From: Kocuria turfanensis
Lineage (GTDB): Bacteria > Actinomycetota > Actinomycetes > Actinomycetales > Micrococcaceae
NCBI RefSeq assembly: GCF_001580365.1
Contig: NZ_CP014480.1
Location: 806,001 to 870,000 of the forward strand
Direction of reading: 5' to 3'
Length of the DNA stretch: 64,000 bases
The position numbers and the translations under genes were made by a program. Below the pieces are notes generated by a model. That model had not been told where the DNA came from. It made no database searches and worked only from the letters and a program-made list of their open reading frames with translations. This document shows positions 7,267 through 64,000 of this stretch, one piece after another; within the stretch, counting starts at the first letter, position 1; the number at the start of each line of letters is the position of its first letter.

Positions 7267-7377
7267 CGTCCGCCCGCGCACCCGGTGCGCGGCACGTCCC
7301 GAGGCCGGAGCAGCCGCCCCGCCCCGCCCCGCCGGCCCGACCGCCGCGCCCGGCCGCACGAAGGAGCAACGACCCCT

Positions 7378-8445
7378 GTGGTGACCCTGAAGCAGCAGCA
7401 GACCAACGCGCACTCCCGCATTCTCGGCCTCGGGGTCTACCGCCCGGACGTGGTCGTGACCAACGACGACGTGTGCCAGTGGATCGAGTCCTCGGACGAG
7501 TGGATCCAGCAGCGCACCGGCATCCGGACCCGGCACCGCGCCGCCGAGGAGGTGAGCGTGCTCGACATGTCCGAGCACGCCTCCCGGGAGGCGCTGGCCG
7601 CCGCCGGGATCGAGGCCTCGCAGCTGGGCGGGGTGATCGTCTCCACGATCTCCTTCCCCTACCTCACCCCCTCGGCGGCCGCGGCCCTCGCCGAGCGGCT
7701 GGGTGCCACCCCGGCGCCCGCCTTCGACATCTCCGCGGCCTGCGCCGGCTACTGCTACGGCGTCGCCCAGGCCGACGCCCTGGTGCGTTCCGGGGCGGCG
7801 GACTACGTGCTGGTCGTCGGCGTGGAGAAGCTCTCCGACGTCATCGACAACAGCGAGCGCTCCATCTCGTTCCTGCTCGGCGACGGCGCCGGCGCGGCGG
7901 TGGTCGGCCGGTCCGAGACCCCCGGCATCGGCCCGTCCGTGTGGGGCTCGGACGGCTCCAAGTGGGACGCCATCCGGATGACCCACCCGCTCACGGACAT
8001 CCGCGCCGTGGAGCAGGGCCGGGAGCGCACCCCCTCCCCCGACCTCCTCGATCCGGAGACCGGCGAGGTGCGCGAGGACGCGACCCTGTGGCCCACGCTG
8101 CGCCAGGACGGGCAGACGGTCTTCCGCTGGGCCTCGTGGGAGGTCGCCAAGCGGGCCCAGGAGGCCATGGACGTCGCCGGCGTGGGGCCCGAGGACCTCG
8201 GCGCCTTCATCCCGCACCAGGCGAACATGCGGATCATCGACCAGATGGCCAAGACGCTGAAGCTGCCGGACTCCGTGGTCATCGCCCGCGACATCGCCGA
8301 CGCCGGCAACACCTCCGCCGCCTCCGTCCCGCTCGCCACGCACCGGCTGCTCGCCGAGCACCCGGAGCTGTCCGGCAGGCTGGCCCTGCAGATCGGCTTC
8401 GGCGCCGGCCTGGTCTACGGGGCGCAGGTCGTCGTCCTCCCCTGA
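7378..8445 (+). CDS. fabH: Beta-ketoacyl-ACP synthase III
   Basis: Starts fatty acid synthesis by condensing an acyl-CoA primer with malonyl-ACP. The 355-residue protein carries the Cys-His-Asn triad: C122 in SAACAGY, H280 in PHQANMR and N311 in DAGNTSAA. An iso/anteiso primer preference is expected for this family in Micrococcaceae but cannot be read from the sequence. The GTG at 7378 is preceded by AAGGAG at an 11-base spacing; a second GTG at 7381 is also possible. It lies 111 bases after fabD in the same cluster. Confidence 0.95.
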   Translation: MVTLKQQQTNAHSRILGLGVYRPDVVVTNDDVCQWIESSDEWIQQRTGIRTRHRAAEEVSVLDMSEHASREALAAAGIEASQLGGVIVSTISFPYLTPSAAAALAERLGATPAPAFDISAACAGYCYGVAQADALVRSGAADYVLVVGVEKLSDVIDNSERSISFLLGDGAGAAVVGRSETPGIGPSVWGSDGSKWDAIRMTHPLTDIRAVEQGRERTPSPDLLDPETGEVREDATLWPTLRQDGQTVFRWASWEVAKRAQEAMDVAGVGPEDLGAFIPHQANMRIIDQMAKTLKLPDSVVIARDIADAGNTSAASVPLATHRLLAEHPELSGRLALQIGFGAGLVYGAQVVVLP

Positions 8446-52033: not shown

Positions 52034-54331
52034 TCAGCCCCGGTCCAGGAACGCCTCGGCGTCCGGGGCGAGGTAGCGTTCGATGGCCTCGGCGAGCTCG
52101 GGGTGCTCGTCGAGCCCGGGGTCCTCGCCGAGGAGGGTGACGGCGTCCCGGCGGGCGCGCTCGATCAGCTCGGCGTCGTCGAGCGCGCGCAGCAGCCGCA
52201 GGGTGGACCGTCCTCCCGACTGCGCCGCGCCGAGGATGTCCCCCTCGCGGCGCAGCTCCAGGTCGGCCCGGGCGAGCGCGAAGCCGTCGGTGGAGCCGGC
52301 CACGACCTCGATGCGCTCCCGCGAGGGGTGCTCGGCGGGGCGCCGGGTGACCAGCAGGCACGTCCCGGCGTGCCCACCCCGCCCGATCCGCCCGCGCAGC
52401 TGGTGCAGCTGGGAGATGCCGAACCGGTCGGCGTCCACGATGATCATCAGCGTGGCGTTGGGGACGTCCACCCCCACCTCGACCACGGTGGTGCACACCA
52501 GCAGCTGCACCACCCCGGAGGCGAAGTCCTCCATGAGGCGGGCCTTCTGCACCGGGTCGAGCCGGCCGTGGAGCACCTCGGCGCGCACGCCGTCCAGCAC
52601 GGGCTGCCGGGCGATCAGCTCGGCCAGCCAGGCCACGGAGGCCATCGGCGCCTCGGCCTCCTCGTCCTCGGCGGCGGCTGCGCGGGCGGACTCGGCCAGG
52701 GAGCCGGCGGGCGGGGCCTCGTCGTCGTCCCCGATCTTGGGCGCGACCACGTAGACCTGCCGGCCCGCGTCGATCTCCTCGCGGGCGCGGCGCCACAGGC
52801 GCTGCTCCCAGGCGGGGTGCTCCACGAGCCCCACCGTGTGGGTCGCGATGGGCTGGCGCCCGGCCGGCAGCTGGTCCAGCACGGAGACGTCGAGGTCGCC
52901 GAAGACGGTCATGGCCACGGTCCGCGGGATGGGGGTCGCGGTCATCACGAGCAGGTGCGGGGGACGGCCGGCCTTGTCCCGGAGCCGGTCGCGCTGCTCC
53001 ACGCCGAAGCGGTGCTGCTCGTCCACGACGACGAGCCCGAGGTCGGCGAACTGCACGACCTCGGAGAGCAGGGCGTGGGTGCCGATGACGATCCCGGCCT
53101 CCCCGGAGGCGATCTGCAGCAGCGCCCGCTTGCGCGCGGCCGCACCCATCGACCCGGTGAGCAGCACGACCTGCGTGCCGTCGGGGTCCCCGCCCAGCTG
53201 CCCGCCGTGGGCGAGGGGGCCGAGGGAGCGCAGCACGGAGCCGTGGTGCTGCCCGGCGAGCACCTCGGTGGGCGCGAGCAGCGCGGCCTGGGCGCCCGAG
53301 TCGACGACCTGCAGCATGGCGCGCAGCGCCACGAGCGTCTTGCCGGCGCCCACGTCGCCCTGCAGCAGCCGGTTCATGGGGTGGGTCCCGGCGAGCTCCG
53401 CCGCGAGCTCCTCCCCCACGGCGCGCTGTCCGGCGGTGAGCTCGAAGGGCAGGGCGGCGTCGAACTTCGCCAGGAGCCCGTCCGGGGTGCCGGGGCGGGC
53501 GGTGGTCGGGTGGGCCGCGAGCTCGGCCCGGCGGCGGGCGAGGGCGCACTGGAGCAGGAAGGCCTCCTGGTAGCGGAAGCGGCGGCGGGCCTCGCCGTGG
53601 GCCCGCGTGTCCCGCGGCCGGTGCACCTGCCAGTATGCCTCCTCGAGGCCCATGAGCCCTTCCCGCTCGCGGATGCTCTCCGGCAGCGGGTCCGGGACCG
53701 CCGCGAAGTCGACGACCGGCAGCAGGGAGTGCACGGCGCGGGCGATCTTGTCCGTGGTGAGCTTGGCGGTGGCCGGATAGATGGGGATGGGGCGCCCGGC
53801 CCGCTCCTCCGCGCTCTCCCCGGCCTCCGGGGCGTCCGGGTCGAGGATCGCGTAGTGCGGGTTGGTCATGGTCACGGCGCCGTTGTACAGCCCGACCTTC
53901 CCGGAGAACAGGGCGTGCGTGCCCGGGGGGAGGTCCCTGGCCGCGGTCCAGGCGTTGAAGAAGCTCAGCCGCATCGTCCGGCCCGGGGCGGGCTCCGCGT
54001 CCTCGAACAGCAGCCGGGGGTCCGAGGAGACGCGGTCGGTGATCACCACGTCCGTGATCGACCCGCGGCGGGAGCGCATCTGGCGGGTGGAGGCGGAGAC
54101 GACCTCGGCCACGATGGTGACCTGCTGGTCGATGCGCAGCTCCGAGAAGGGGGTGAGCTCGCCCCGGGGCATGTACCGGCGGGGGAAGTGGTCGAGCAGC
54201 TGCCCGATCGTGCTCACGGAGAGCTGCCGCGCCAGCTGGTCGGCCGTGGCGCGGCCCAGCAGGCGCGCGAGCGGCTGGTCGAGCTCGGGGACCGGGGCGG
54301 GGAACGCCCCGCCGGTGTGGGACCGGGCCAT
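52034..54331 (-). CDS. recG: ATP-dependent DNA helicase RecG
   Basis: Fork-reversal and branch-migration helicase. The 765-residue protein has an N-terminal wedge (OB) domain and superfamily 2 motor with GDVGAGKTLVAL, DEQHRFGV (motif II, DEQH), TATPIPRT and RIGRGGHAGTC (motif VI). A 60-residue acidic/Ala-rich insert lies between the motor lobes near residue 540. ATG at 54331 follows the DAK2 stop by 12 bases. Confidence 0.95.
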   Translation of the reverse strand: MARSHTGGAFPAPVPELDQPLARLLGRATADQLARQLSVSTIGQLLDHFPRRYMPRGELTPFSELRIDQQVTIVAEVVSASTRQMRSRRGSITDVVITDRVSSDPRLLFEDAEPAPGRTMRLSFFNAWTAARDLPPGTHALFSGKVGLYNGAVTMTNPHYAILDPDAPEAGESAEERAGRPIPIYPATAKLTTDKIARAVHSLLPVVDFAAVPDPLPESIREREGLMGLEEAYWQVHRPRDTRAHGEARRRFRYQEAFLLQCALARRRAELAAHPTTARPGTPDGLLAKFDAALPFELTAGQRAVGEELAAELAGTHPMNRLLQGDVGAGKTLVALRAMLQVVDSGAQAALLAPTEVLAGQHHGSVLRSLGPLAHGGQLGGDPDGTQVVLLTGSMGAAARKRALLQIASGEAGIVIGTHALLSEVVQFADLGLVVVDEQHRFGVEQRDRLRDKAGRPPHLLVMTATPIPRTVAMTVFGDLDVSVLDQLPAGRQPIATHTVGLVEHPAWEQRLWRRAREEIDAGRQVYVVAPKIGDDDEAPPAGSLAESARAAAAEDEEAEAPMASVAWLAELIARQPVLDGVRAEVLHGRLDPVQKARLMEDFASGVVQLLVCTTVVEVGVDVPNATLMIIVDADRFGISQLHQLRGRIGRGGHAGTCLLVTRRPAEHPSRERIEVVAGSTDGFALARADLELRREGDILGAAQSGGRSTLRLLRALDDAELIERARRDAVTLLGEDPGLDEHPELAEAIERYLAPDAEAFLDRG

Positions 54332-54343
54332 CTCAGGCGCGCC

Positions 54344-55270
54344 TCATCCGTCCGCCTCCGAGAGGGAGGTCACCGTGAGGTTGACGGCCTCGCCCCGGGC
54401 GCCGATCACCGCGAGCGCCTCCTCGGTGCGCTCCACGTGCACGTGCACGCGCCACCGGTAGCCGTCCCCGGCCTCGGAGACCGCGCTCATGATCACGCTG
54501 CTGCCCACCTCGCTGAGCTCGTGCCGCAGCTCCGCGGCGTCCAGCGGGGACAGCTCCACGGTGCACATGACCTCCACGCCGCCGTGCACGGTGTGCGGGG
54601 CGGCCTGGGCGACCGCGGCCCGTGCGGCGGCGTCGTCGATCAGCTGGTCGAGGCCGGCCTCGTCGCCGGCGTCGTCCCCGCCCACCGTGCGGGCGAGCGC
54701 GTCGAGGACGACGAGCATGCCCAGCGCCCCGGCGTCGACCGTGCCGGTCTCGCGCAGGATCTCGAGCTGGTCGGGGGTGGCCAGGACGGCGGCGCGGGCG
54801 GCCTCGCTCACCTGGGCCAGGAAGTCCTTCAGCTGCTGGTTCGACCCGTCCCCCACGTCCTGCGGGACCGGGACGGCCGCGGCCGCCTCCAGCACCGAGA
54901 GCATGGTGCCGGCGACCGGGTCGGAGAGCACGCTCCAGGCCCGCACGTGGCCCGCGTGCAGGGCCACGCGCACGGACTCGGCGCTCATCCGGGTCTGTCC
55001 CTCGAGGGACTGGCCCACCGCCGTGAGGAACACGGAGAAGAGGGTGCCGGAGTTGCCGCGGGCCTCCTCCAGGGCGGCCTGGCCGGCCAGGGCGAGCAGC
55101 TCTCCAACGTCGCCGGTCTCCAGCACGCCGGCGGCCTCGGCCGCGGCGCGCACGGTGGTCGCCAGGTTGGTCCCGGTGTCCGAGTCGGCGACCGGGAAGA
55201 CGTTGAGGGCGTTGAGCACGGGGCTGTGCCGGACGAGATCGCGGTGGGCCAGGTCGAGCCACCGCCGCAT
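54344..55270 (-). CDS. DAK2-domain protein (short form)
   Basis: Related to the N-terminal DhaL-type ATP-binding domain of YloV/FakA-like kinases. The 308-residue protein begins MRRWLDLAHRDL and has the nucleotide loop NVFPVADSDTGTNLATT, where the usual DGDTGTN has become DSDTGTN, and ARGNSGTLFSVFL. Full-length relatives are 450-550 residues; the C-terminal domain is lacking and recG starts 12 bases on, so it is a natural short form or an old truncation. A longer start (GTG at 55321) would overlap thiL. Confidence 0.85.
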   Translation of the reverse strand: MRRWLDLAHRDLVRHSPVLNALNVFPVADSDTGTNLATTVRAAAEAAGVLETGDVGELLALAGQAALEEARGNSGTLFSVFLTAVGQSLEGQTRMSAESVRVALHAGHVRAWSVLSDPVAGTMLSVLEAAAAVPVPQDVGDGSNQQLKDFLAQVSEAARAAVLATPDQLEILRETGTVDAGALGMLVVLDALARTVGGDDAGDEAGLDQLIDDAAARAAVAQAAPHTVHGGVEVMCTVELSPLDAAELRHELSEVGSSVIMSAVSEAGDGYRWRVHVHVERTEEALAVIGARGEAVNLTVTSLSEADG

Positions 55271-55292
55271 GACGGCCGTGTTCGATCCGATC

Positions 55293-56378
55293 CTATGGTT
55301 CAAAGTGATCCCATCCTTCACCGACCGGGTGCCCGAGGGCGAGGTGCGGCGCTCGTCCGTCGAGCAGCACCCGGGGGCGGGTGCCGTCGTGCCCCGGGGG
55401 CGCGGGCGCACACGAGCCTATCGCACGGAAGGCCCCGGGCAGGGGGGCGCCCTGTGGAAAGACGGCCAGCAGGCCGTGGTCCTCCCCGCCGGTGAGCACC
55501 CAGTCGCGGGGGTCCGCGCCGACCAGCCGGGCGGCCGGCTCCAGGGGTTCGGCGAGGGCGGCCACGGCCGCGCCGTCGAGGTCGACCACGACGCCGCTGG
55601 CGGCCGCGACCCGCCCGGCGTCACGGAGCAGGCCGTCCGAGAGGTCGATCATGGCGGTGGCGCCGGCGCGGGCGGCGTCCGGGCCGGCCGGCACGGGGGC
55701 GCACGGGCGCAGCTGCGCCGCCGCGAGCTCGTCCAGGAGCTCGTCCTGCCCGGCCCGGTAGCGGGGGTCCTCCAGCAGGGCCACCCCGGCGGCGGCGCGG
55801 CCGGTCGTGCCGGCCAGGGCGAGCACGCCTCCCTCCCGGGCCCCGGCGCGGCGCACCGGATCCCGGCCCTCGAGGTCGCCGGTCACCGTCGCCGTGACCG
55901 ACAGCTCCCGTCCGGCCCCGAGGTCCCCGCCGACCACGGCGCAGCGCTGCGCCCCCATGGCCTCGCATCCGGCGGCGAGACCGCGGGCGAAGTCCTCGGG
56001 CCAGGACACGGGGGTGTGCGGGGGCAGGGTGAGCGAGACGACGAGGGCCGAGGGGACCGCGCCCATCGCGGCCACGTCGGCGAGGTTCTGCGCGGCGCAC
56101 TTGACGCCGGTGTCGTAGCCGGTGGTGCGCACGCCGCTGGGCCAGGCGAGGCGGAAGTCCTGATCCTGGACCTGGGTGTCCGTGGTGATCACGTACCGGC
56201 CGTCCGGGGCCGCGACCACGGCGCAGTCGTCCCCGGGACCGAGCAGCACCTGGGCGGCGGGCCGGGCGAGAAGCGGCAGCACGCGCGCCAGCAGCTCCGC
56301 CTCCGAGAGCTCCCCGACCGTCGGCTCCGCCGCGGGCGGCGCGTGGGGTGCAGGGGGGTCCGCTGGGGGTCGGCTCAT
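55293..56378 (-). CDS. thiL: Thiamine-monophosphate kinase
   Basis: Phosphorylates thiamine monophosphate to the diphosphate, the cofactor of AceE among others. The 361-residue protein has ELLARVLPLL, LLGPGDDCAVVA, the second-strand DVAAMGA and the metal-binding TGGEDHGLLAVF. ATG at 56378 is chosen because TAGGAT ends 7 bases before it (leaderless); a second ATG at 56387 overlaps that element. Gene order thiL-DAK2-recG is conserved. Confidence 0.94.
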   Translation of the reverse strand: MSRPPADPPAPHAPPAAEPTVGELSEAELLARVLPLLARPAAQVLLGPGDDCAVVAAPDGRYVITTDTQVQDQDFRLAWPSGVRTTGYDTGVKCAAQNLADVAAMGAVPSALVVSLTLPPHTPVSWPEDFARGLAAGCEAMGAQRCAVVGGDLGAGRELSVTATVTGDLEGRDPVRRAGAREGGVLALAGTTGRAAAGVALLEDPRYRAGQDELLDELAAAQLRPCAPVPAGPDAARAGATAMIDLSDGLLRDAGRVAAASGVVVDLDGAAVAALAEPLEPAARLVGADPRDWVLTGGEDHGLLAVFPQGAPLPGAFRAIGSCAPAPPGHDGTRPRVLLDGRAPHLALGHPVGEGWDHFEP

Positions 56379-56385
56379 GGCGCTC

Positions 56386-56436
56386 ATCCTAACGAGGGGC
56401 CCGGACGCGGGAACGGCCCCGGCCACGGATTACGCT
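56386..56436. promoter_or_regulatory. Divergent leaderless promoters for thiL and the DUF3515 gene
   Basis: TAGGAT on the minus strand (56386-56391) sits 7 bases before the thiL ATG; TACGCT on the plus strand (56431-56436) sits 6 bases before the DUF3515 ATG. The starts are 64 bases apart. Confidence 0.5.
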
Positions 56437-56442
56437 GGTGGC

Positions 56443-56946
56443 ATGCCCCTGCTCCCCCCGCCCCGTCCTGCCCGCGCCCTGCTGGCGGCGGGCGCCCTGG
56501 CCGCGGTCCTCACGGGCTGCACCCCGGCCGTCACCGTGGACCCCGCCGAGAACGCCGCCGACCCCGGGTGCGCCCCGGCGATGCTCGCCATGCCGGAGAC
56601 CATCGGTGAGCACGAGCAGCGGGAGACCACCAGCCAGGCCACCACGGCCTACGGCGAGCCCACGGCGGTGGTCGTCCGCTGCGGGGTGACGCCCCCCGGC
56701 CCGACCACGGACCCGTGCTCCTCCGTGAACGACGTCGACTGGCTGATCCGCCAGGGCGGCGCGGACGGCGAGGACGGGGACACCTGGACCGCCACCACGT
56801 ACGGCCGCGACCCCGCGGTGGAGGTGGTGTTCGACAGCACCGCCGTGTCCTCCTCGACGCTGCTCGTGGAGCTGGGCTCCGCGGTCGAGCAGATCCCCGC
56901 CGACCGCCAGTGCCTGGACCTCCAGGACGCCGCCGAGGGGTTGTGA
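56443..56946 (+). CDS. DUF3515 family lipoprotein
   Basis: Protein of 167 residues with a signal peptide ending VLTGC, a clear lipobox with Cys at about residue 26, then a small folded domain with PTAVVVRCGVTPPGP and three further cysteines. Function unknown. A DUF3515 gene transcribed towards ddl is the conserved arrangement in Actinobacteria. Probably leaderless. Confidence 0.88.
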   Translation: MPLLPPPRPARALLAAGALAAVLTGCTPAVTVDPAENAADPGCAPAMLAMPETIGEHEQRETTSQATTAYGEPTAVVVRCGVTPPGPTTDPCSSVNDVDWLIRQGGADGEDGDTWTATTYGRDPAVEVVFDSTAVSSSTLLVELGSAVEQIPADRQCLDLQDAAEGL

Positions 56947-57145
56947 CCCCCGCCGGCGCCCGGTGCGGTGGCGCCGGGCGCCGGCGCGCGGTGCGGCCCG
57001 CGGCGGAGTGTGACGGGCGGGGCGGGCCGGCGGTTCCCCGGCGTGTCCGGGATCACTATCGTGGGTGCCCCGGCACGGCCGGGAACCGGCCGCACGGACC
57101 GCAGCGGTGCCCTCCCGGCACCTCGAGAGCACAGGAGGACGAGCC

Positions 57146-57562
57146 ATGACGACCGCACGAGAGATCATGACCCCCGGCGCGGAGTGCATCGGGAAAAACC
57201 AGAGCCTCGAGGAGGCCGCCCGGAAGATGAAGGACCTCGACGTCGGTGCGCTGCCCATCTGCGGGGAGGACGACCGGCTCAAGGGCGTGCTCACCGACCG
57301 CGACATCGTGGTGCGGTGCCTGGCGGTCGGCACCGACCCCCGCCAGGTGAAGGCCGGGCAGCTGGCCCAGGGGAAGCCGGTGACGATCGGCGCCGACGAC
57401 AGCGTGGAGGAGGCCATCGACACCATGCAGGAGCACCAGGTGCGCCGCCTGCCGGTGATCGACGGACACGCCCTCGTGGGCATGATCAGCCAGGCCGACA
57501 TCGCCCGGTCCATGCCCGAGGACCGCGTGGGTGAGCTCGTCGAGCTGATCTCCTTCGACTGA
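57146..57562 (+). CDS. CBS-domain protein
   Basis: Two CBS domains in 138 residues: AREIMTPGAECIGKNQSLEEAARKM and later PVTIGADDSVEEAIDTM, each followed by a LPI/LPV strand (GALPICGEDD, RRLPVIDG). Such pairs bind adenosine nucleotides and act as energy or stress sensors. AGGAGGA before the ATG at 57146. Similar to the hypoxic-response type CBS proteins of Actinobacteria. Monocistronic, with its own terminator. Confidence 0.93.
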   Translation: MTTAREIMTPGAECIGKNQSLEEAARKMKDLDVGALPICGEDDRLKGVLTDRDIVVRCLAVGTDPRQVKAGQLAQGKPVTIGADDSVEEAIDTMQEHQVRRLPVIDGHALVGMISQADIARSMPEDRVGELVELISFD

Positions 57563-57575
57563 GCCCCCGGTACGG

Positions 57576-57604
57576 ACCGCCCGGCACGGACCGTGCCGGG
57601 CGGT
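57576..57604 (+). terminator. Intrinsic terminator of the CBS gene
   Basis: 12-bp perfect stem (57576-57587 with 57593-57604), 5-base GGACC loop, then TTTGT. One of the few hairpins here with any T-run. Confidence 0.85.
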
Positions 57605-57744
57605 TTGTGCCCGCGGCCCCCGGGCGGGCTACCATCGGTGCCTTCCCCGGCACCGGCCGCGGCGGAACGGGAATAGGTCCGTTCCCCGCCGGGTTGTGGC
57701 GTGGACACCTCAACGACCGCACCATCCACAGGAGGAGATCACCC

Positions 57745-58050
57745 GTGGCCACCGATTACGACGAGCCCCGCGTCAAGCCCGAGGACGAACCCGCCAACGA
57801 GTCGCTCGAGGTGATCCAGGCCCAGCGCAGCGCCACGAGCCAGAGCCCGGCGATCGACGTCGACGACGCGGACACGGCGGAGGGCATCGACCTGCCCGGC
57901 GCGGACCTGTCCCAGGAGGAGCTGCTGATCCAGGTGGTGCCCGAGCAGGAGGACGAGTTCACCTGCATGTCCTGCTTCCTGGTCCGCCACCGCAGCCAGC
58001 TCGCCCGCGAGAAGGACGGCGCGAAGTACTGCCTGGAGTGCGAGGGCTGA
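57745..58050 (+). CDS. DUF4193 family protein
   Basis: Acidic 101-residue protein beginning VATDYDEPRVKPEDEP, with a C-terminal CMSC and CLEC pair (residues about 73-76 and 97-100) that probably bind zinc. Function unknown; widespread in Actinobacteria. The GTG at 57745 has GGAGGAG upstream. A TACCAT -10 candidate lies near 57630-57635, giving a leader of about 100 bases. Confidence 0.9.
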   Translation: MATDYDEPRVKPEDEPANESLEVIQAQRSATSQSPAIDVDDADTAEGIDLPGADLSQEELLIQVVPEQEDEFTCMSCFLVRHRSQLAREKDGAKYCLECEG

Positions 58051-58074
58051 CCCGCCCGGCGGGCCCGCCGCGGC

Positions 58075-59355
58075 TCACTCGTGGCGCAGGGAGGCGATGG
58101 GGTCCTTCCGCGCGGCCCGCACGGCCGGGATCGTGCCGGCGAGGAACGCGATCCCCATGACGGCCAGCACGATCAGCCCGACCCTCCCCGCCTCGAAGGC
58201 GAACAGGGACAGGCCGGGCAGACCCGAGAGATAGCCCCCGGCCAGCGCGCTGCTCACCGCGGAGCCGCCGGCGACGCCCGCCGCGGCGCCGAGGGCCGCG
58301 CCGAGGAGGCCGATCAGCACGGCCTCCAGGGAGAAGAGGCCGAAGACCGTGCGCCCGCTCATCCCCATGGCCTTCATCAGCCCGATCTCCCGGGTGCGCT
58401 CCTGCACCGACATCAGCAGCGTGTTGATGATCCCGAGGCCCGCGGCCAGCAGGGCGATCACGGCACAGGCGTTGAGGATCCACACGATGGCGTTGATGAC
58501 CGTGCGGAACATCCCCAGCTGGTCCTCCACCGTCAGGCCGAGCATCTCCCGCTCCTCCAGCCGGGACTGGATCTCGGCAGCCCGCCCCATGTCCTCGACC
58601 GTGACCGTGGCCATCGCGAAGCTCTCGGGCACCTGCTGCGGCCCGCCGCTCACCTGGTACGCGTAGAGCCGCTCGTTGAAGGAGTCGGACGGGATCGGGT
58701 TCAGGGAGGTCCCCGCCAGGCTCGCCTGGGTCACCCCGGAGATGCGGGCCGGGAACGCCCGGTCCCGCTCCGCGAGGTCGGTCATGACCACGACCACCTC
58801 TCCTCCGACGGCCTCCGCGGCGGAGGCGTAGCCGAGGTGGGCCACCCAGCTGTCCGGGACCGCGATCTCGTCCCGCTCCGCGGCCGGGGGCCCGCCGGCC
58901 ACCATCTGCAGGCCCACGGCGTCGACCGGGATGCCCGGCGAGAGCTGGAAGCGGCTGCCGTCCGCGGCCTCCAGGTAGGTCGGCGAGACCGCGTACATCG
59001 GCTTGACCGACGCCACGCCGTCGAGGCCCTCGAGGAACTCGACGTCCTCCGGGGAGAGCCCCTCGAAGGACACGCCGAAGCCCGTGCGGATCCGCGTGGT
59101 GTCCGGGTCGTACTCGCGCGGCCCGGCACCGGCCGAGAGCTCGACAAGGGGCTGGGACTTCTGGACGTAGAGCGCGTCGGCGTCGCCGAAGGCGGCCACG
59201 GTGTCGTCGATGTAGCGGTTCACACCGGTGCCCATCCCGGAGGTCAGCGTCAGCGCGCAGGCCCCGATGAACACCGCGACCACGGTCAGGCCGGTGCGGA
59301 TCCTCGCCCGCCGCGCGTTGACCGCCGCGGAGCCGAGCAGATCGGGCCACCTCAC
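58075..59355 (-). CDS. FtsX/MacB-type ABC transporter permease
   Basis: Protein of 426 residues with an N-terminal membrane helix (GLTVVAVFIGACALTLTSG), an extracytoplasmic domain of about 230 residues (MacB periplasmic type) and three C-terminal helices with the FtsX signature ERTREIGLMKAMGMSGRTVF. It ends RAARKDPIASLRHE, as typical for such permeases. The usual LolD-like ATPase gene is missing on both sides. The GTG at 59355 overlaps a small upstream frame by four bases. It is convergent with DUF4193. Cargo unknown; lipoproteins or peptides are usual. Confidence 0.88.
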   Translation of the reverse strand: MRWPDLLGSAAVNARRARIRTGLTVVAVFIGACALTLTSGMGTGVNRYIDDTVAAFGDADALYVQKSQPLVELSAGAGPREYDPDTTRIRTGFGVSFEGLSPEDVEFLEGLDGVASVKPMYAVSPTYLEAADGSRFQLSPGIPVDAVGLQMVAGGPPAAERDEIAVPDSWVAHLGYASAAEAVGGEVVVVMTDLAERDRAFPARISGVTQASLAGTSLNPIPSDSFNERLYAYQVSGGPQQVPESFAMATVTVEDMGRAAEIQSRLEEREMLGLTVEDQLGMFRTVINAIVWILNACAVIALLAAGLGIINTLLMSVQERTREIGLMKAMGMSGRTVFGLFSLEAVLIGLLGAALGAAAGVAGGSAVSSALAGGYLSGLPGLSLFAFEAGRVGLIVLAVMGIAFLAGTIPAVRAARKDPIASLRHE

Positions 59356-59555
59356 GGGACGCCCCCGGCGCCGGCGAACGCGCCGCCCGGTGCGGCGCAG
59401 GCGGGCGGCGCGAGCACCGGAGCCCCGCAGCGCTGGGACCGGCGGCCGCACCGGGCCGCCCGCGCAGGGCCGTGGGCGCCCACCACGGTCCTGCCGTGCT
59501 CCGCGCGGCCGTGCACCTGCACCGGGCCCCCCGCCCCGGGCACTCCTGAGCTCAT
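59352..59555 (-). CDS. Possible small protein coupled to the FtsX-type permease
   Basis: A 67-residue frame starts at an ATG (59555) with GGGAGAGG at good distance and ends with its stop overlapping the permease GTG (GTGA). Start MSSGVPGAGGPVQVHGRA, three cysteines near the middle, no membrane segment. No similarity recognised. It could be a true leader peptide, a remnant of the missing ATPase gene, or chance; composition alone does not decide. Confidence 0.35.
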   Translation of the reverse strand: MSSGVPGAGGPVQVHGRAEHGRTVVGAHGPARAARCGRRSQRCGAPVLAPPACAAPGGAFAGAGGVP

Positions 59556-60043
59556 CGACTGCCTCTCCCCGCCTCGGGCGGACGTGGCCGCCCTCCGGAG
59601 TGCGGCCGGCGGAGTGCCCGAGCGGCACCCCGTGGACTCCATCATGTGCGTTCGCGAATGACGGTGCGGACCGGACACGTGTCCCCACTAGTGCAGGGTT
59701 GCGCCGGGGGAAAGGGGCCGGATCCGGATCCCGGCCGCCCCGGCGCCCGCGCGGCGGCCTCTGCGGCCCGGCCCGGGTCCGCCGCCTCATGCCGTCACGT
59801 AGCCGTTCACCCTTGCTAACGATGTGCAGGAGTACATAGTTAAAGCACAGCAGTTCTTCGGTCGGGGGTTCCGGCTCCGTCGAACGGGCACTCGCCCCGT
59901 CCGGGCCGAACGAGGAGCAGCACGACGCGTCCCGTCGTGTCCGCGCGGGGGTGCGGAGGCGACACCGTCAGGGGCTCGTGCTGCGCGCTGGCGGTCCTGG
60001 GGTGGGCCCGGGCCGACTACGGACGATCAGGAGACACATCGAC
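59556..60043 (+). promoter_or_regulatory. Promoter and structured leader of the surface-protein gene
   Basis: No gene was seen in these 488 bp. TTGCTA (59813-59818) and CATAGT (59835-59840) with a 16-base spacer form the best promoter, giving a leader of nearly 200 bases. In it, CACGACG (59921-59927) can pair with CGTCGTG (59933-59939), or the overlapping GCAGCACGA (59917-59925) can pair with TCGTGCTGC (59976-59984); the two folds exclude each other. An AGGAG site ends the leader. No known riboswitch family was recognised. Confidence 0.4.
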
Positions 60044-60793
60044 ATGACTGCTACGAGAAAGCTGGTGGTCGCCGGCTCGTCGACGACCGTGCTGGTGGGG
60101 AGCCTGTTGCTGGGCGCCCCGTCGGCCGTCGCCGCACCGGTGGACGCACCGGCCGCTGACGCCCCGCCGGGCGTGGCCGAACCCGCGGCGCAGCAGGCCG
60201 CTCCGGCCGAGCTCCCGGCCGTGGCTCCCGCGCCCGTCGATCCCGCACCCGTGGAGGCCCCCGCGGCCGCCCAGGAGGCACCGGCTGCGCCGGAGGTGGT
60301 CCCGGCCGCACCCGCGGCGCAGGAGGCCGCCCCGGTCGCACCGCCGGCCGTGGACCCCGCGCCCGCGGACGTCCCGGCCGCCGCCCAGGTGGCACCGGCG
60401 GCCCCCGAGGTCGCCCCGGCCGCACCCGCGGCGCAGGAGGCCGCCCCGGTCGCACCGCCGGCCGTGGACCCCGCGCCCGCGGACGTCCCGGCCGCCGTCC
60501 AGGAGGTCCCGGCCGCGCCCGCGGCCGAGGTGGCCGCTCCCAGCGGGGGCGAGAACACCGGTCTGAACGTGGACACCTTCCTCACCGCCGCGCCCCTGGA
60601 GCAGCCGGCCGCGGCCGGGGTGCTCACCGCGCTGCTCGCGGCGGCGGTGGCCCTGCCCGGCGCGCTGGCGCTCCGGGCCCGCCGGCTCGGGGCGGCGCCG
60701 GTGCGGCGGGCGCCCGGCCGCGCCCCCGCACAGGGACGACCGGTCCCGGCCGTCGCGGCCCGGACCACGGAGAACAGGACAGCATGGGCATGA
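60044..60793 (+). CDS. Pro/Ala-rich secreted surface protein, candidate sortase substrate
   Basis: 249 residues. Signal peptide with cleavage after SAVA (about residue 30), a Pro/Ala/Val-rich stalk to about 185 with a 38-residue repeat, then GENTGLNVDTFLTA, one hydrophobic helix (GVLTALLAAAVALPGALAL) and a basic tail starting RARRLG. This is the layout of a cell-wall sorting signal, but there is no LPXTG or LAXTG. Its stop overlaps the sortase gene, which suggests it is that sortase's substrate. AGGAG before the ATG. Binding partner unknown. Confidence 0.75.
   Translation: MTATRKLVVAGSSTTVLVGSLLLGAPSAVAAPVDAPAADAPPGVAEPAAQQAAPAELPAVAPAPVDPAPVEAPAAAQEAPAAPEVVPAAPAAQEAAPVAPPAVDPAPADVPAAAQVAPAAPEVAPAAPAAQEAAPVAPPAVDPAPADVPAAVQEVPAAPAAEVAAPSGGENTGLNVDTFLTAAPLEQPAAAGVLTALLAAAVALPGALALRARRLGAAPVRRAPGRAPAQGRPVPAVAARTTENRTAWA
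60307..60534 (+). repeat. 114-bp tandem duplication in the surface-protein gene
   Basis: The second copy starts at 60421, exactly 114 bases after the first at 60307; at least the first 77 bases are identical. It encodes a 38-residue Pro/Ala repeat (PAAQEAAPVAPPAVDPAPAD). Confidence 0.85.
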
Positions 60794-61392
60794 GCACCCT
60801 GCCGGCGCCGCCGCGCCCGGGCACGACCTCCCGCACGGACCCGCGGGCGCGGTGGGCGGCCGTGGTGACCATCTGCGCCGCCGTCCTCTGGGTGGGGCTG
60901 ATGAACCAGTGGTTCCTCGCCCAGGAGCTCTTCGGCCACACCCCGGGCGCGGCGTCGCCGCTGCGCCTGAGCATCGACGCCGTGGACTTCGAGGCGGACG
61001 TCCTGCCCTACAACCCCACGGAGGACCAGCTCTCGGAGGCCTCCCTGGTGCCCCCGCAGACCTACAGCGGCTACTGGCTCACCCCCTACGGGATGCCCGG
61101 CGCGGGCTCGGAGAACACCACCTACATCGCCGGGCACAGCTACGACCGGGTCGCGCTGCCGTTCAACAAGCTCAGCGACCCGTCCCTGGTCGGGAAACGG
61201 CTCGAGGTGGAGACGGTCGACGGGACGCTCGACTACGTGGTCGACTCCGTCACGACCTACGAGAAGGACACGCTCAAGGACAGCGGGATCTGGCGGGTCG
61301 TGCCCCACCGCATCGTGCTGATCAGCTGCTACACGCGTGACGCGGTCGGCAAGAACGTCGTGGTCACCGCTTCCCCCGCCCCGGAGGACTAG
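60784..61392 (+). CDS. Class F-like sortase
   Basis: Membrane transpeptidase of 202 residues that links proteins to the cell wall or to each other. One membrane helix (WAAVVTICAAVLWVGLM), then the sortase domain with H118 in YIAGHSYD and C182 in VLISCYTRD. The third catalytic residue, Arg, is not in its usual place: only R185 and, before NVVV, K190 are near. ATG at 60784, or at 60790 with a four-base overlap of the upstream stop. Coupled to the surface-protein gene. Class F is inferred from length and overall pattern. Confidence 0.85.
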   Translation: MGMSTLPAPPRPGTTSRTDPRARWAAVVTICAAVLWVGLMNQWFLAQELFGHTPGAASPLRLSIDAVDFEADVLPYNPTEDQLSEASLVPPQTYSGYWLTPYGMPGAGSENTTYIAGHSYDRVALPFNKLSDPSLVGKRLEVETVDGTLDYVVDSVTTYEKDTLKDSGIWRVVPHRIVLISCYTRDAVGKNVVVTASPAPED

Positions 61393-61426
61393 GCCCGGCC
61401 CCGAGGGGAACGGGCGGGCCGGAGAG

Positions 61427-62545
61427 TCAGCGCAGGCCGACCGGGCGCTCCATGGCCAGGCCGAGCAGCTCGTCGATCAGCCGGGCGTAGTCCAGCCCGG
61501 AGGCCGCCCACATCCGCGGGTACATGGAGATCGGGGTGAAGCCGGGCATGGTGTTGACCTCGTTGATGACGACCCGGCCGTCCGGGGTGTAGAAGAAGTC
61601 GGCGCGGCACAGGCCCTCGCCGTCGAGCGCCTCGAAGGCGGTCACGGCTCCGGCGCGGATGGCGTCGGTCGCCTCCTGCGGCAGGTCCGCGGGGCAGCTG
61701 AGCCTCGCGGAGGCCTGGGAGACGTACTTGGCCTCGAAGTCGTAGAAAGCGTGCTCGTCGACGATCTCGATCTCCCCGGGCATCGAGGTGCGGGCCGGGT
61801 CCGTGCCGCGGCCCTGGAGCACGGCGCACTCGATCTCCCGGCCCACGATGCCGGCCTCGACCACGAGCTTGCGGTCGTGCTCCCGGGCGGTCTCGATCGC
61901 CGCGTCCAGGTCCTCGGGCCGGTCCACCTTGGTGATCCCGAAGGAGGAGCCCGCCCGGGCCGGCTTCACGAACACGGGGAAGCCCAGCGCGGCGATCCGC
62001 TCGCGCACGCAGGCCGGGTCGAGAGCCCACTGGCGGTCGGTGACCACGGTGTAGGGGCCCACCTCCATGCCGGCCGCCTCGAAGGCCAGCTTCATGAAGT
62101 GCTTGTCCATGCCCACCGCGGAGGCGGTCACCCCGCAGCCGACGTAGCGCAGGTCCGCGAGCTCGAGGAGCCCCTGGAGGGTGCCGTCCTCGCCGAAGGG
62201 CCCGTGCAGCAGGGGCAGGACCACGTCGATGTGGCGGTCGCGGGTCACGGTCTCGCCGCAGGAGCCGGCCTGCCGGACGATCAGCTCGTTCTCCCCGACC
62301 TTCAGCGGCAGGCTCACGAGGTCCTCCCCCACCGGCAGCTCGGCGATCGGGTTCTCGTCCAGCAGCCGCTCCAGCTCCTCCTGCGGGCAGAGGAACCACT
62401 CACCGGAGGTGGAGATCCCGACCGTCACCACGTCCCACTTCTCCCGGTCGATGGCGCGCAGCACGCCGCGGGCCGTGATGAGGGAGATGGAGTGCTCGCT
62501 GGAGCGTCCGCCGAAGAGCACGGCGACGCAGGGGCGGGGGGTCAT
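61427..62545 (-). CDS. ddl: D-alanine--D-alanine ligase
   Basis: Joins two D-alanines with ATP for peptidoglycan. The 372-residue ATP-grasp protein starts with VAVLFGGRSSEHSISL and has LLHGPFGEDGTLQGL, PVFVKPARAGSSFGITKV and the metal site GRVVINEVNTMPGFT. Its start overlaps the gpsA stop by four bases (ATGA). It is convergent with the sortase gene, and in other Actinobacteria it is next to DUF3515. Confidence 0.96.
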   Translation of the reverse strand: MTPRPCVAVLFGGRSSEHSISLITARGVLRAIDREKWDVVTVGISTSGEWFLCPQEELERLLDENPIAELPVGEDLVSLPLKVGENELIVRQAGSCGETVTRDRHIDVVLPLLHGPFGEDGTLQGLLELADLRYVGCGVTASAVGMDKHFMKLAFEAAGMEVGPYTVVTDRQWALDPACVRERIAALGFPVFVKPARAGSSFGITKVDRPEDLDAAIETAREHDRKLVVEAGIVGREIECAVLQGRGTDPARTSMPGEIEIVDEHAFYDFEAKYVSQASARLSCPADLPQEATDAIRAGAVTAFEALDGEGLCRADFFYTPDGRVVINEVNTMPGFTPISMYPRMWAASGLDYARLIDELLGLAMERPVGLR

Positions 62546-63684
62546 GGGGTGGTCCCTTCGGATTTGATCTCGCGGCCCAGCAGCAGCGGGGCCAGGTCGT
62601 CGACGGTGATGTCCTCGCGCAGGATGGCCACGACGGCCTCGGTGATGGGCATGTCGACGCCGTGCCGGCGGGCCAGGGCCAGCACGGCCGGGGCGGACTT
62701 GATCCCCTCGGCCGTCTGGGTCATCTCCTCCTGCACCTCGGCGAGGGTCGCGCCGAGCCCCAGGAGCCGGCCCGCCGTGCGGTTGCGGGACAGCGGCGAC
62801 GAGCAGGTCGCCACGAGGTCGCCCATCCCGGCCAGGCCGGAGAGCGTCTCGAGCCGGCCGCCCAGGGCGAGGGCGAGGCGGGTGGTCTCGGCCAGCCCGC
62901 GGGTGATGATGGAGGCCTTCGAGTTCTCCCCGAAGTGCCGCCCGTCGGCGATGCCCACGGACAGGGCGATGACGTTCTTGACCACCCCGCCGATCTCGGT
63001 GCCCACCACGTCGGTGTTGGTGTACGGGCGGAAGTAGCGGGTCCGGCAGGCGTGCGCCACCCAGCTGGCGAGCTCCGTGGTGGGGGCCGCGACGACGGAG
63101 GCGGTGGGCTGCTCCTCGGCGATCTCCATGGCCAGGTTCGGCCCGGAGAGCACGCAGGTGCGCTCCCGCCAGTGCTCGGCGTCCCGGTCCGTGTCCCGGC
63201 CGAGCTCCTCGGCGACCACCTCGCTCATCCGCAGCCCGGTGTCCCGCTCGAGTCCCTTGGCCAGGGAGAGCAGCACCGCCTCCGGGTCGAGGTGCGGGGC
63301 CGCGGCGGCCAGCTGCGCGCGCAGCGCCTGGGCGGGCACCGCGAGGACCACCAGGTCGGCCCCGTGCACGGCGGCGGCGAGGTCCCCGGTGACCTGCAGG
63401 AGCCCGGGCAGCCGGATGCCGGGCACGTAGCGGTCGTTCACGTGGGTGCGCGCCACGTGCCCCATGGCGTCCGCGTCACGCCCCCAGAGCACGACCGTGC
63501 GGGCCGGGGGCTCGTGCCGGGCGTGCGCGGCGGCCCGGGCGCTGTCGGCCAGGACCTTGGCGAAGGTGGTGCCCCAGGACCCGGCGCCGAGCACGGCGAT
63601 CTTCCGGGGGCCCCCGGCGGTTCCGGACGGGACGGGCAGGGGTGAGCCGGGCATGGGCCGGGCGGGGCCGGAGGGCGACGTCAC
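62542..63684 (-). CDS. gpsA: Glycerol-3-phosphate dehydrogenase [NAD(P)+]
   Basis: Makes sn-glycerol-3-phosphate for phospholipids. The 380-residue protein has a 25-residue Pro/Ser N-terminal extension, then the Rossmann motif VLGAGSWGTTFA, LSGPNLAMEIAE, and the catalytic Lys in GVVKNVIALSVG. GTG at 63684 overlaps the plsC stop by four bases, with GGAGG upstream. plsC-gpsA-ddl form one coupled unit. Confidence 0.95.
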   Translation of the reverse strand: MTSPSGPARPMPGSPLPVPSGTAGGPRKIAVLGAGSWGTTFAKVLADSARAAAHARHEPPARTVVLWGRDADAMGHVARTHVNDRYVPGIRLPGLLQVTGDLAAAVHGADLVVLAVPAQALRAQLAAAAPHLDPEAVLLSLAKGLERDTGLRMSEVVAEELGRDTDRDAEHWRERTCVLSGPNLAMEIAEEQPTASVVAAPTTELASWVAHACRTRYFRPYTNTDVVGTEIGGVVKNVIALSVGIADGRHFGENSKASIITRGLAETTRLALALGGRLETLSGLAGMGDLVATCSSPLSRNRTAGRLLGLGATLAEVQEEMTQTAEGIKSAPAVLALARRHGVDMPITEAVVAILREDITVDDLAPLLLGREIKSEGTTP

Positions 63685-64000
63685 AGGCGGCCTCCTCGGC
63701 TGCGGTCCCACAGGGCGGGCGGGGCCTCGGCCCCGCGCAGCGCCGCGAGCTCGTCGGTCACGGCCCGCATGATCGCGTCGGTGGCGTCCTCCAGCCGGGC
63801 GGCGTGGCGCCCCACGGGGTGCGTCAGGGCCGGGGCGTCGTCGCGCCACGGGGTGAGGTCCACGGGCGGGCCGATCCGCACGCGCACGTGCTTGCGCGGG
63901 AACAGGCTGACGGTCTGCCGACCGGTGGACGGGGCCCGGCCGAGGACCTCCTGGTCCCCCCAGTGCGCCAGCGGGATCACCGGGACGCCGGTGGCCAGGG
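63681..64000 (-). CDS. plsC: 1-acyl-sn-glycerol-3-phosphate acyltransferase (N-terminus beyond window)
   Basis: Second acylation of phosphatidic acid synthesis. Only the last 106 residues are visible: TGVPVIPLAHWGDQEVL is the family's late conserved block, followed by a basic strand and a helical C-terminus. The catalytic HX4D motif lies outside the window. Named from this block and its coupling to gpsA, the next step in the same pathway. Confidence 0.85.
   Translation of the reverse strand, partial: LATGVPVIPLAHWGDQEVLGRAPSTGRQTVSLFPRKHVRVRIGPPVDLTPWRDDAPALTHPVGRHAARLEDATDAIMRAVTDELAALRGAEAPPALWDRSRGGRL

Follow-up and report, generated by a model that had tools for sequence, protein, structure and literature searches.

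Sortases characterised up to 2016 read a P-x-T core, with the LAXTG signal of class E as a new exception, and the signal listing of the same 2016 paper covers classes A to E and gives none for class F (PMC5148588). SrtF of C. acnes is reported to use LPXTG (PMC13257024, PMC7913060), and the roles of class F are still called unknown in a further account (PMC13251363). Here, we analysed 64,000 nucleotides of the Kocuria turfanensis genome (contig NZ_CP014480.1, positions 806,001 to 870,000; hereafter the window, numbered from its first letter), in which a sortase gene and the gene of a secreted Pro/Ala-rich partner lie between DUF3515 and ddl. Our results argue that the two probably form a dedicated pair, whose sortase belongs to a clade restricted to one family (Micrococcaceae) and would read, rather than LPXTG, a proline-free signal of its own, N-x-G-Φ-N-Φ-[Q/D]-T.

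Among the described systems, class F (NF033748; C. acnes SrtF) resembles the clade in being actinobacterial and in having the sortase fold, and with E≤0.01 as the limit its model matched 25 of the 30 clade members. In contrast to LPXTG substrates, the neighbours of the clade sortases carry a proline-free signal, and in the enzymes the β7-β8 loop is short and the place of Arg is mostly taken by Lys. The best NCBIfam match of the window sortase was class F at 27.1 bits, with a cut-off of 166; the label class F-like, given in an earlier note on this DNA, is weak, the score lying far under what that model demands. The N-x-Q-T core of the clade signal recalls the NPQTN of class B, but the clade signal lacks the proline, carries an additional N-x-G-Φ in front and is mostly followed by Ala or Gly. 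Class E also reads an actinobacterial signal without the usual proline (PMC5148588), but the clade motif is longer, conserved and contains no LAXTG. At E≤0.01 the NCBIfam matches of the clade included neither a class B nor a class E model. C. difficile CbpA carries a proposed sorting signal, NVQTG, with the same NVQT core (PMC4155245), but in another phylum and with another sortase class. The non-LPXTG C-terminal sorting domain GVDTG_CTERM (NF058571) matched 7 of 25 clade tails at E≤1, but below its cut-off and starting only after the motif; the best of 20 tails scanned singly (L022) reached 4.5e-6 and 26.9 bits against a cut-off of 29. This model did not match the window tail and gave nothing over its cut-off anywhere in the window genome (4.16 Mb, five contigs), where six of eight model-spanning matches adjoined other sortases and none adjoined a clade sortase. 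No other non-LPXTG sorting domain in NCBIfam took the window tail. No report of the NxG-N-QT signal was found in the open-access literature, subscription papers being mostly outside the search, and the literature search returned no paper on a sortase with R197K.

The partner gene runs from 60044 (ATG) to 60793 (stop) on the + strand, and its product, which belongs to no Pfam or NCBIfam family, consists of a signal peptide, a Pro/Ala-rich stalk and a C-terminal sorting signal. The stalk is encoded by a 114-bp tandem repeat of 2.5 copies (60234-60521, +). The motif NTGLNVDT (60554-60577, +) is followed by Phe, with proposed cleavage after Thr, and precedes a membrane helix and an Arg-rich tail, so that motif, hydrophobic stretch and positive tail stand at the C-terminus of a secreted protein that contains no LPXTG. 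About 35 further residues extend beyond the Arg-rich tail, unlike in five relatives with the pair at the same junction. A profile of the signal (A2), built from 25 partner tails of clade sortases, matched the window partner (G000:C1:866548-866694) at 2.4e-16, this copy being outside the training set. The sortase gene follows on the + strand from 60784 (ATG; or 60790) to 61392 (stop). Its product has a membrane helix at about residues 20-49 and then a sortase barrel; it matched PF04203 at 37.6 bits (cut-off 26.6) and has the sortase fold, and a profile search of the PDB gave weak sortase matches only. In the mechanism that we propose, the partner would be exported by its signal peptide and then held in the membrane by the C-terminal helix and the Arg-rich tail. 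The sortase, anchored by its N-terminal helix, would read N-x-G-Φ-N-Φ-[Q/D]-T; by analogy with the sortase family, Cys182 would cut after Thr and the protein would be passed to a peptidoglycan precursor, leaving the disordered stalk on the wall. Such a flexible surface stalk might, at a guess, have a shielding or spacing role.

At E≤1e-3, 27 of 149 family genomes held a relative of the window sortase, and 18 of these passed E≤1e-30; among 27 Kocuria genomes, 8 held one. A search of 396 genomes, a sparse sample of the phylum, gave matches at E≤1e-20 in the window genome (G000) and in G009 only, both of this family. The first family search had picked up seven other sortases in the window genome and missed the three of the clade, so it misses divergent sortases. 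Our count of clade sortase loci came to 37, including one from a contaminant record: the contig WNZI01000068.1 (L041), labelled Vibrio cholerae 35D, encodes a clade sortase and looks like contamination. A same-strand protein with signal, hydrophobic stretch and basic tail stood upstream at 35 of the 37 loci; in 27 of these the signal obeyed N-x-G-Φ-N-Φ-[Q/D]-T strictly, and in the remaining 8 it followed a looser version. His118 and Cys182 were invariant in all 30 clade sortases aligned (alignment A1). At Cys+8 (Lys190 in the window), the position that would correspond to the catalytic Arg, Lys was present in 24, Arg in 5 and Thr in 1; by alignment distance the spacing equals that of the Arg in the CEDLAATER loop of S. 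pneumoniae SrtA. An outright loss of the catalytic Arg was considered and dropped, the position being basic in 29 of 30 and variable in other sortases here too. The main parts of the partners ranged from an ice-binding protein to helical proteins (one modelled, with a mean predicted local distance difference test score of 75) and Pro/Ala-rich stalks, and few of 34 partners scanned matched any Pfam family (E≤0.01). The plasmid search yielded a single match, in Arthrobacter sp. TMP15 (NZ_CP154263.1, L114), where the clade sortase adjoins an ice-binding protein ending in NNGVNVDTA. A phage-borne pair was ruled out, since the sortase had no match in the phage collection.

The motif was tallied over 46 rows, including the corrected reads NQGINMQTA (L097) and NTGLNVDTA (L099); NAGMNVDSG (L160), NRGANIQSA (L122) and GRGLAVQTA (L111, without a profile match) stand outside the tally. 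Thr was followed by Ala in 36 rows, Gly in 4, Arg in 3, Phe in 2 and Leu in 1, and the rows with Phe, Leu or Arg were exactly the six copies located at the DUF3515/ddl junction. The sortases of these copies read CYT[RQ]DAV[GDE][KR]N in the β7-β8 loop, with Val at 188 in all six, and Trp occupied this position in 21 of the 24 non-junction sortases of the alignment. Work on class A sortases describes the β7-β8 loop as affecting selectivity for P1′, and Trp194 of S. aureus SrtA as contacting the substrate Thr (PMC8361268). As read from the alignments, the junction enzyme, in its loop, and the signal, in the residue after Thr, have changed together.

Signal and sortase also occurred together across genomes. 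For Kocuria, scoring covered every candidate in 26 of the 27 genomes. At E≤1e-3 the signal profile matched the same 8 genomes that have the sortase, and the 19 others gave no match (Fisher test, 4.5e-7). Of the 28 signals in these eight, 14 adjoin a clade sortase. None of the other 14 had entered the profile, and two of them lay on G162 contigs of 3.7 and 5.6 kb, on which the surroundings are not visible. The window genome has seven signals and three clade sortases. Its four unpaired signal proteins (L115-L118, at G000:C1:405034, C1:2780053, C2:144092 and C1:477748) have main parts that look helical. Among the 149 family genomes, signals at E≤1e-5 were found in 14 of the 18 with the sortase (E≤1e-30) and in none of the other 131, and both presence and absence of sortase and signal occur inside several genera. 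Over 297 genomes of the order, every signal match at E≤1e-6 fell in sortase genomes of this family; the order searches scored at most 13 and at most 22 candidates per genome and the phylum search at most 9. Weak profile matches in G042 and G066 are without the motif and resemble chance hits, and most other weak matches lack the motif end of the profile. Sortase fold, conservation of His and Cys, conservation of the motif, adjacency and co-occurrence make up the computed support for a dedicated pair.

Several observations weigh against this interpretation. The constancy of Gly and Thr in the motif arises partly by construction, because the motif search demands both, and two full-length profile matches (L122, L160) have Ser for Thr. 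Recovery of the 25 training tails is circular, because the profile was made from them; only held-out matches and absences are independent. The eight Kocuria with sortase and signal form one clade, so their co-occurrence may be a single event, and the change of loop and P1′ likewise concerns one clade and may have happened once. The family-wide absences rest on at most 45 scored candidates per genome, G028, counted among the 131 others, holds a fragment of a clade sortase, and four sortase genomes (G078, G084, G086 and G096) were missed at E≤1e-5 with the signal readable there. Both loci that lack the signal count here too: L041 shows no such tail in the 1163 nt upstream of its Cys codon, and L030 is cut by a contig end. 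One of 20 tails (L022) passes the NCBIfam LPXTG cut-off, by its membrane part and not by its motif. Finally, the mostly Lys residue occupies the place of a catalytic Arg described as conserved in all sortases (PMC13257024), and C. difficile SrtB is reported not to have cleaved a similar NVQTG (PMC4155245).

A sortase tree was built after removal of 6 of its 66 input rows, which were in the wrong frame, fragmentary, duplicated or second copies with poor ends; six other sortases of the window genome (L001-L006) are absent from it, as the sortase profile gave no match to them. One branch, whose support of 88/87 falls below the threshold set by the program, separates the 34 clade rows from the rest. 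All six junction copies form a group supported at 100/100 inside the Kocuria rows, which suggests that the junction copy arose by duplication, within Kocuria, of a second pair situated elsewhere in the genome. It is conceivable, and in our view unlikely, that this duplicate is decaying and that its pair may no longer work. The signal has lost Ala or Gly after Thr and the loop its Trp188, the partner is a Pro/Ala-rich stalk without a helical domain, the neighbouring genes have decayed, and the window shows a C-terminal extension and a gene overlap that are absent in five relatives. In the same five relatives, by contrast, the sortase frame is open (200-202 residues) and 70-84% identical, His and Cys are kept, and the junction copies share the changes, which match between enzyme and signal.

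An ordinary class F-type sortase, acting on LPXTG-like or GADTG proteins elsewhere while NxG-N-QT marks a conserved but uncut membrane tail, appears quite improbable. Besides the best NCBIfam match and the LPXTG use reported for C. acnes SrtF (PMC13257024, PMC7913060), several other sortases with GGADTG partners in the window genome speak for it. The surroundings of other sortases serve as controls, which favour the dedicated pair. Neighbouring tails were recovered for five of the seven other sortases: beside L001, L002, L005 and L006 the tail is GGADTG or PADTG, which resemble GVDTG_CTERM below its cut-off, and beside L007 it is neither. L003 and L004 adjoin GVDTG-type matches under the cut-off. 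Six distant sortase loci (L026-L029, L031 and L032) had no NxG-N-QT neighbour within the stretch available. Against this alternative stand the score of 27 bits, where the model requires 166, the presence of the tail in partners with different main parts (ice-binding, helical, Pro/Ala-rich) and the confinement of strong signal matches to genomes with the clade sortase.

The pair was also what recurred when the junction was compared across Kocuria. Of the 27 genomes searched, 26 had ddl, and the comparison covered 25 junctions, that of the window among them (G149 was left out), with distances taken from tblastn ends. The earlier note had placed ddl beside DUF3515, in the order thiL, DUF3515, ddl, and within Kocuria this was borne out. 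All 17 junctions outside the window's clade had the usual order without the sortase (in L062 the contig stops before thiL), with a DUF3515-ddl gap below 210 nt in 12 and of about 1.15-1.2 kb in five. The sortase pair was present at 6 of the 25 junctions (window, G162, G151, G160, G164 and G154); two of the eight members of the clade, G153 and G161, have no junction pair. In G154 the pair stands alone, without CBS, DUF4193 and FtsX; in G151, G160 and G164 (L055, L057 and L058) DUF4193 and FtsX accompany the sortase, FtsX with an adjoining ATP-binding cassette (ABC) ATPase gene 93-95% identical to that of G164; and G162 (L054) has neither FtsX nor ATPase. A CBS-like remnant of 38 residues, 55% identical, lies at 7286-7399 of the G162 locus, at the site of the intact CBS gene of the window. 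Only sortase and partner form a unit, because the other junction genes differ between relatives. Searches of 20 other sortase regions with ddl, DUF3515, DUF4193, CBS and FtsX were negative at E≤1e-4, and the only junction-gene matches were general ABC ATPase ones in 4 of them; surface protein and sortase stood together at many other loci. Therefore, the lineage-specific surface module that the earlier note saw at a conserved junction holds for the pair and not for the 4.4 kb as a whole. That the whole stretch from DUF3515 to ddl is one surface or cell-wall island tied to ddl is very improbable: the genes are together in the window, and DUF4193 and FtsX also accompany the sortase in G151, G160 and G164, but G154 has the pair only, G162 has a mere CBS-like remnant without FtsX and ATPase, and the 20 other regions gave no match to these five genes.

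Around the pair, all the genes named in the earlier note were present between DUF3515 and ddl. The CBS-domain protein (57146-57562, +), the DUF4193 protein (57745-58050, +; E 4.5e-37) and the FtsX/MacB_PCD-type permease (58075 to about 59355, -) were judged to lie outside the module, and ddl follows at 61427-62545 on the - strand. FtsX as part of the module was ruled out, because three relatives keep an ABC ATPase partner beside it. The permease lacks an ATPase in the window, as had been noted: tblastn of 54001-64000 found none. Where the three relatives have about 790-860 bp including the ATPase gene, the window has about 270 bp (59369-59639, no strand assigned; blastn), in which tblastn found no ATPase remnant; judging from this comparison, the window FtsX has lost the ATPase that they retain. 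The overlap noted between the partner and sortase genes is real, the partner stop overlapping the sortase start by 10 nt (an ATGA overlap if the sortase ATG is 60790), but conserved translational coupling was ruled out, as a gap of 81-140 nt replaces the overlap in all five relatives that have the junction pair. A tRNA beside the site was likewise rejected, the window containing none, and the promoter scan found no promoter and one terminator-like site, near chance level. Among 16 regions from other genera, G018 (L078) has a sortase pair flanked by thiL and DUF3515, thus one gene off the junction of the window, and in G099 a pair lies beyond recG, on its far side, the available stretch (L082) being short and containing no ddl.

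In another family of the order, sister sortases (L131-L133 and L135) have neighbours ending in NPGLRSNTG or NPGLSSATG. These tails share N-x-G-L and a Thr at the same spacing and may represent a second variant of the extended signal, N-P-G-L-x-S-[N/A]-T-G, which could point to a wider set of such codes. A bolder reading of the clade, which we hold only tentatively and at less than even confidence, is that it constitutes a distinct sortase class, met so far in a single actinobacterial family, with an extended signal of 8-9 residues, N-x-G-Φ-N-Φ-Q-T, cut before Ala, Lys in place of the catalytic Arg, up to seven substrates per genome and, in Kocuria, two pairs whose specificity would be set by the β7-β8 loop. 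If Lys is catalytic, the rule of the invariant Arg falls. The enzyme is also possibly an orthogonal one for protein ligation. A clear proline-free signal supplies concrete candidate substrates where few are known, and four further anchored proteins are predicted in the window strain. The matched change of loop and P1′ would offer a direct handle on the co-evolution of sortase and signal.

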